Source: Oscillospiraceae bacterium | GTDB taxonomy: Bacteria; Bacillota; Clostridia; Oscillospirales; CAG-272 | DNA length: 64,000 bases | Reading direction: 5' to 3' | NCBI GenBank assembly: GCA_015063845.1 | Contig: SVTJ01000009.1 | Coordinates: forward strand, 1-64,000 | Part shown: positions 10,196 to 62,073 of the stretch, in pieces | How the letters are laid out: every line of letters begins with the position of its first letter | How positions within the stretch are numbered: position 1 is the first letter of the stretch | Made by a program: the position numbers and the translations under genes | Notes under the pieces: generated by a model | Seen by the model: only the letters and a program-made list of their open reading frames with translations | The model's database searches: none | Told to the model about the DNA's origin: nothing

Positions 10196-10402
10196 AAATT
10201 AGGATTTGTCGGTGTGTTCACACAGCACCCATAAGCCTCCCTCCGAGAGGGAGGGGGACCACGAAGTGGTGGAAGGAGCTGGCGTGCATACGGAGGTAAG
10301 ATATAACGCTATTGTACACGAGCTCTCCCTCAGTCTCGCATTCGCTCGACAGCTCCCTCCGCAGGGAGCCTTTGTTGCAATGCGATGCCATTTGTGCACT
10401 TT
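10196..10402. repeat. Dispersed palindromic repeat with element-type terminus
   Basis: AAATTAGGATTTGTCGGTGTGTTCACACAGCACCC terminus, then CTCCCTCCGAGAGGGAGG...AGCTCCCTCCGCAGGGAGCC inverted blocks. Confidence 0.6.
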
Positions 10403-10845
10403 CAAATTAGGATTTATAGATGTGTTCGCACAGCACCTATTTTTAAAAGTTTTAGTCAAGTTTTTTCAAAAACTTGCGGGGTCAAGGGGCGGCGTCCATT
10501 GTCGCTCGTCGCAACGAGCGAAACACCTTGCGGTGAGAAGGAGGTCTGGAGGGAACCTCCAGGCGCGCGTCGCAACGCGCGAAATCCCATATCGTTACGT
10601 AAAGTAACTTTGTGTTAACAAGGGGTCCGCTGCCTGCGGGCAGCGCTGGGAGGTCCCTAAACGTTTCGCTTTGCGAAACCTTACGGTTGAGCTTGCTCAA
10701 CCATAGACCCACCGTGACCGTGAGGGTGTTCCGACGCTTGCGAGCGTCGGCAAGCCTACGCGGCTTGTGCGCGAAAACTTTTGAAAAAGTTTTATCAAAA
10801 CTTTTAAGCGGGGTGCTTGCGAACTCCCAGACAAATCCTAATTTG
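10403..10845 (-). mobile_element. Non-coding ITR-bounded hairpin-cassette element, copy 1 (MITE-like)
   Basis: Reverse complement aligns over full length to 61627-62073; termini CAAATTAGGATTT.../...AAATCCTAATTTG; multiple perfect internal hairpins. Confidence 0.75.
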
Positions 10846-61626: not shown

Positions 61627-62073
61627 AAATTAGGATTTATCGGTGTGTTCGCACAGCACCCATTATTGAAAGTTTTGATAAAACTTTTTCAAAAGTTTTC
61701 GCGCTCAAGCCGCGTAGGCTTGTCGCTCGTCGCAACGAGCGAAACACCCTCACGGTCACGGTGGGTCTATGGTTGAGCAAGCTCAACCGTAAGGTTTCGC
61801 AAAGCGAAACGTTTAGGGACCTCCCAGCCGCTCTCCGCAGAGAGCGGAACACCCCTTATTAACACAAAGTTACTTTATGCTACAATAGGGGATTTCGCTG
61901 CCTGCGGGCAGCGCTCGGGGGTTCCCCCCGAACTCCCTTCTCAGCGTAAGGAGTTCCGCTCTCTGCGGAGAGCGGCAATGGGCGCCGCCCCTTGACCCCG
62001 CAAGTTTTTGAAAAAACTTGACTAAAACTTTTAAGAGGGGTGCTGTGCGAACACACCGATAAATCCTAATTTG
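61627..62073 (+). mobile_element. Non-coding ITR-bounded hairpin-cassette element, copy 2 (MITE-like)
   Basis: ITR AAATTAGGATTTATCGGTGTGTTCGCACAGCACCC / GGGTGCTGTGCGAACACACCGATAAATCCTAATTT (perfect inverted match); aligns to reverse complement of 10403-10845. Confidence 0.8.

Follow-up and report, generated by a model that had tools for sequence, protein, structure and literature searches.

Two hairpin-rich elements in one genome

The window, i.e., the whole 64,000-nt stretch of DNA that was analysed, comes from the 1.88 Mb genome of an uncultured gut member of the Clostridia/Oscillospiraceae (labelled G000), the FolD of which is 93% identical to FolD of a water-deer caecum MAG. As originally predicted, two copies of an A-type hairpin element, 443 and 447 bp long, lie in opposite orientation ~51 kb apart; they are 85% identical over the element length. 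Both are indeed intergenic: genes for a DUF4358 protein and a BspA-type LRR protein surround copy 1, and copy 2 lies next to folD. Their folds as single-stranded DNA are much better than those of shuffles (z = −11.6 for copy 1 and −20.0 for copy 2), so that their hairpins cannot be ascribed to chance. The predicted extent of copy 1, 10403–10845, holds for the element itself, but its left boundary splits a compound of 650 bp with a further terminus, in direct orientation, at 10196. The additional module, B, has a right edge, TTTGTGCACTTTC, that adjoins the A element exactly at the terminus of the latter, and a 133-aa frame spanning the B–A junction (10206–10607) is probably spurious. The features are as follows:

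10196–10403, + strand: B module, 208 bp, fused to the left end of copy 1; 15 copies in the genome
10196–10212: left terminus of the B module, in direct orientation relative to the copy 1 terminus
10403–10845, + strand: A-type hairpin element copy 1, 443 bp; the first base is the Y preceding AAATT; fold z −11.6
10404–10420, + strand: left terminus of copy 1, AAATTAGGATTTATAGA; from the terminus family search and the logo of 107 termini
10447–10529, + strand: left arm module of copy 1; covariance-model match of 94 bits, covariation
10457–10476, 10483–10501 and 10502–10521, + strand: hairpins H1, H2 and H3 (loop CGCA) of the left arm of copy 1
10564–10581, + strand: central hairpin of copy 1 with CGCA loop, CGCGCGT-CGCA-ACGCGCG
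10628–10645, + strand: central hairpin of copy 1 with TGCG loop, CGCTGCC-TGCG-GGCAGCG
10723–10803, − strand: right arm module of copy 1, H1–H3 inverted (H3 at 10731–10750); covariance-model match of 82 bits
10828–10844, − strand: right terminus of copy 1, AAATTAGGATTTGTCTG; one mismatch
61627–62073, − strand: A-type hairpin element copy 2, 447 bp, between terminator-like hairpins 3′ of folD; fold z −20.0
61627–61643, + strand: terminus of copy 2, from the terminus search
61670–61750, + strand: arm module of copy 2; covariance-model match of 85 bits
61948–62030, − strand: second arm module of copy 2; covariance-model match of 99 bits
62056–62072, − strand: second terminus of copy 2, from the terminus search

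Empty sites orthologous to the folD-downstream locus were sought in 17 relatives, in which the flanks are not conserved. A hairpin arm also lies 3′ of folD in another species (L242; covariance-model match of 87 bits), and the two occurrences do not resemble one shared insertion.

A conserved terminus frames unrelated cores

The 17-nt terminus, AAATTAGGATTTRTCGG, has 118 matches with up to two mismatches across the 1.88 Mb genome, compared to two for a reversed control pattern. In a logo of 107 termini, bases 1–12 are 93–100% conserved, and among the termini that do not adjoin a B module, 96% have C or T as the base just outside. Copy 1 had been described as an older copy with decayed termini, which is not what we find: the outer 13 nt are intact at both ends (AAATTAGGATTTR), the right end carries a single rare change, and the variants at the left end, which reads ATAGA in place of RTCGG, are common end alleles, A being present at position 15 in 15% and at position 17 in 19% of the 107 termini. 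The two ends within one element vary independently (identical at position 13 with a frequency of 0.49 observed versus 0.51 expected), indicating that pairing does not keep them matched to one another; such lack of covariation within an element is expected of a protein-binding type of sequence rather than of a paired stem.

At the search setting used, 39 elements have two inverted 17-nt termini, and copy 1 brings this number to 40. These belong to four unrelated families, namely, D (13 copies, 310–517 bp), C (10 copies, 225–305 bp), A, the family of the 10403–10845 element (8 copies, 100–450 bp), and E (8 copies, 146–354 bp), plus a 73-bp singleton. Thus defined, the elements span 73–517 bp and contain no transposase ORF. 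The best pairs within families are 95–97% identical, with family D reaching 97%, and many truncated A copies exist beyond the eight two-ended ones. The ends are a common property of the elements, whereas the interiors are not.

By simple ORF calling, 17 elements lie between convergent, 14 between tandem and 7 between divergent genes, and one overlaps an ORF. A terminator-like hairpin followed by a T-run is found within 80 nt outside the element in 25 of 67 flanks versus 2 of 67 at a distance of 300 nt; given that this control is largely coding DNA, the enrichment shows that the elements sit 3′ of genes and does not by itself prove targeting.

The exact terminus pattern yielded no matches in a collection of genome contigs. 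Other species of the genus carry a variant, AAATT-N4-TTTRTCGG, with a species-specific middle (GCGG and TTGA in G002, ATGA in G014), and, with up to two mismatches allowed, a genome contains between 0 and 241 matches to AAATTRGGATTTRTCGG. Termini are numerous in G000, G002, G014 and G024 and scarce in most other species of the genus. A related end was found in another genus (G153, G195). Hairpin arms are also present in species that nearly lack termini (G005, G011, G029), so that core and end have separate histories.

Termini as possible integration sites for the B module

The 15 genomic copies of the B module have a median identity of 98%, and every one of them abuts exactly the terminus of another element (A, 1; C, 7; D, 3; E, 4), with C and E being occupied on either side. 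With all copies placed at a terminus, across four families, the termini behave like integration sites.

Several termini have, ~250 bp to their left, a further repeated module, T, with a terminator-like hairpin, ACTCGTCGG...CCGACGAGT (L164–L171 in G000). Its final stretch, GAATGAATAATGAT, adjoins termini of B, C, D and E, whereas L167 lacks the terminus and has core C directly after the T module.

Beside this shared T module, E occurs without B (L101, L053) as opposed to T-B-E (L057, L059), at both ends of E, these being paralogous loci rather than alleles. The simplest reading of the junction sequences would be that B enters at a terminus, leaving a direct repeat of ~16 bp. Such an arrangement could result from cassette-like site-specific recombination, in which termini would be att-like and modules would enter as one-terminus circles, producing direct repeats, perhaps through a tyrosine recombinase. 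The exact placement of B at either end of C or E, its ~16-bp direct repeat, the paired T|E and T|B|E junctions (L101/L057, L053/L059) and the tandem elements of G002 with their recurring joint all conform to this scheme, but the main cores have inverted, not direct, termini, and B could as well have spread through recombination between existing compounds. Of the two tyrosine recombinases encoded in the genome, the first is Xer-like and belongs to a type present in the majority of the 12 genomes searched, and the second is an integrase beside a helix-turn-helix gene. For neither is a link to the termini evident; their recombinase domains, as opposed to the full proteins, score 36–69 bits against an integron-integrase cut-off of 265 and are better matched by Xer models. 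On balance, we consider cassette-like recombination an unlikely explanation. In integron cassette (attC) arrays, modules are likewise added head-to-tail at a short site that they have in common; the present elements differ from such arrays in the lack of cassette genes, in the inverted termini of the main cores and in recombinase domains that score far below the integron-integrase cut-off.

The tandem elements in G002 (L215, L219, L220) share the 9-bp joint GAAGCARAC. One of these loci, L219, holds a minimal element of 50 bp in which 16 bp separate the two ends.

Enzyme and target site

Searches of this genome with models of the DDE families PF01609 and PF00872, of rve (PF00665) and of the RAYT/Y1 transposase (PF01797) produced no matches, and no autonomous partner was seen among the loci inspected. 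Two candidates were rejected. Terminus pairs ~2–6 kb apart in G002 enclose ordinary-looking genes, as read by eye, and a DDE transposase of G024 that matches PF01609 has flanks reading CAGTCTGTCGAAAA, so that it is not the source. This transposase, apparently split across two contigs (L319, L320), lies just past terminators.

No direct repeat is visible outside the element ends, although a duplication of AATT would be hidden within the conserved AAATT...AATTT end. By eye, the flanks show no general complementarity, and a target site within a hairpin loop is suggested in one case (L219).

Stems are conserved by pairing, ends by sequence

Each arm of ~83 nt comprises the hairpins H1, H2 and H3, and we aligned 52 distinct arms from 14 genomes. 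Under the named structure, 96.1% of the cells are paired, compared to 77.5% in shuffled alignments and 32–52% with slid partners; base-pair changes on both sides of the three hairpins number 249 versus 70 in shuffles, and the covariation score is 0.495 versus 0.173, these comparisons not being probabilities, as the arm sequences are related, and favouring well-kept arms, which were recovered by similarity to known ones. The internal pairing is thus preserved, and more strongly so than had been claimed.

H3 follows the plan YCG-nnnnn-CGCA-n′n′n′n′n′-CGR, with a constant loop and a variable stem. In this genome, the variable stem columns of H3 differ by 0.53 in pairwise comparisons between arms, yet 97% of the pairs are Watson–Crick. 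Non-Watson–Crick pairs account for 2.0–2.9% in H1 and H3, whereas mismatches per nucleotide at the ends amount to 4.7% (outer 12 nt) and 7.4% (17 nt), so the stems do not decay as fast as the terminal repeats. This difference does not warrant the proposal that the internal fold is more important than the ends. The comparison is misleading, because the stem sequence of H3 itself turns over strongly, whereas the ends barely change and are common to four unrelated cores; judging from these alignments, the ends are conserved by sequence and the stems by pairing, and the fold takes no precedence over the ends.

G–T states occupy only 3 of 416 H3 cells. Changes in RNA stems are generally believed to pass through G–U, whereas template switching can alter several bases at once in a compensatory manner, with no intermediate (PMC8794818), and can also homogenise arms and invert spacers (PMC8604942). 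The near-lack of G–T intermediates points to upkeep of the pairing at the DNA level, by copying or by exchange of hairpin units, rather than to stepwise compensation under RNA selection. The inverted loop expected from template switching is present in one clear case (L036, TGCG) among ~50 H3 loops. Template-switch-maintained hairpins, described in RNA genes and yeast coding sequence (PMC8794818, PMC8604942), resemble those studied here in their perfect stems, both-sided changes and few intermediates, but ours form a repeat family in which loop inversion is rare.

The same data bear on the possibility that the elements are structured RNAs or cis-regulatory elements, with a fold that would serve the 3′ end processing, stability or termination of transcripts, and repeats that would have spread and been kept for that role. 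The strong fold (z −11.6 and −20.0), genuine covariation over 14 genomes and the many copies located 3′ of genes, near terminators, are all compatible with such a function. However, the near absence of G–U pairs runs counter to how RNA stems are held to change (PMC8794818), unrelated cores occupy the same ends, and the arms are inverted copies, so that both strands would fold alike. Nor did Rfam report any family at gathering score in the 64 kb, the weak matches (E 1.1–1.3) being at chance level. We therefore regard an RNA function as very unlikely.

Probable non-autonomous mobile elements

Taken together, it is probable that the A-type element is a non-autonomous mobile element that works like a MITE and is moved in trans. 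The elements are short, lack a transposase gene and have inverted 17-nt termini, with 118 termini in four families; we describe them as working like MITEs rather than as formal members of the class because neither a target duplication nor a source enzyme was found. An enzyme acting in trans would recognise the terminus as sequence and mobilise whatever two termini enclose. The pairing would be kept on DNA, with one stem arm copied from the other by template switching; alternatively or in addition, hairpin units may be exchanged between copies, neither process involving RNA selection. That the repeats are ancient and inert, with hairpins persisting solely via replication template switching, would agree with pairing upkeep at the DNA level without intermediates and with the many truncated A copies, but is extremely improbable, as a fairly recent spread is implied by the exact termini and by the nearly identical copies (B median 98%, D up to 97%) that occupy unrelated loci.

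A more specific scenario, which we put forward tentatively and consider rather unlikely, is that gut Clostridia possess an undescribed system of site-specific recombination or transposition, for which the shared terminus serves as an att-like site. Such a site would frame interchangeable cores and take further cassettes (B), directly oriented, at either end; its central four bases would have diverged by species, and the hairpins would be kept by pairing at the DNA level. If the elements are mobilised as proposed, one enzyme would move several unrelated gene-free cores via a common end, which would double as a docking site for further modules and offer a simple route to the enzyme. Being naturally present in many copies, the hairpin arms also lend themselves to testing whether DNA template switching, rather than RNA selection, gives rise to compensatory changes.

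The common end of unrelated cores, the accretion of B at termini and the DNA-style covariation of the hairpins are new. The elements covered in the review PMC10969869 are likewise short, gene-free, multicopy, intergenic and strongly folding, with inverted termini; here, by contrast, no target duplication or source IS was found, one terminus delimits several unrelated cores, and the internal arms covary. Non-autonomous elements related to Tn3 also share inverted ends and form mosaics, and resemble the present elements in this organisation. REP/REPIN sequences, associated with RAYT (PMC3116915, PMC3733652), are small intergenic hairpins, too, and recall the GTAG-plus-palindrome of the E core; however, no Y1 transposase domain (PF01797) was matched in G000, and the elements described here are larger and bounded by a terminus of their own. 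The REP-like palindrome of the E core, tagged with GTAG, reads GTAGGGGCGATTC...GAATCGCCC and is found, for example, in L101 (871–1016) and L059 (1416–1561).
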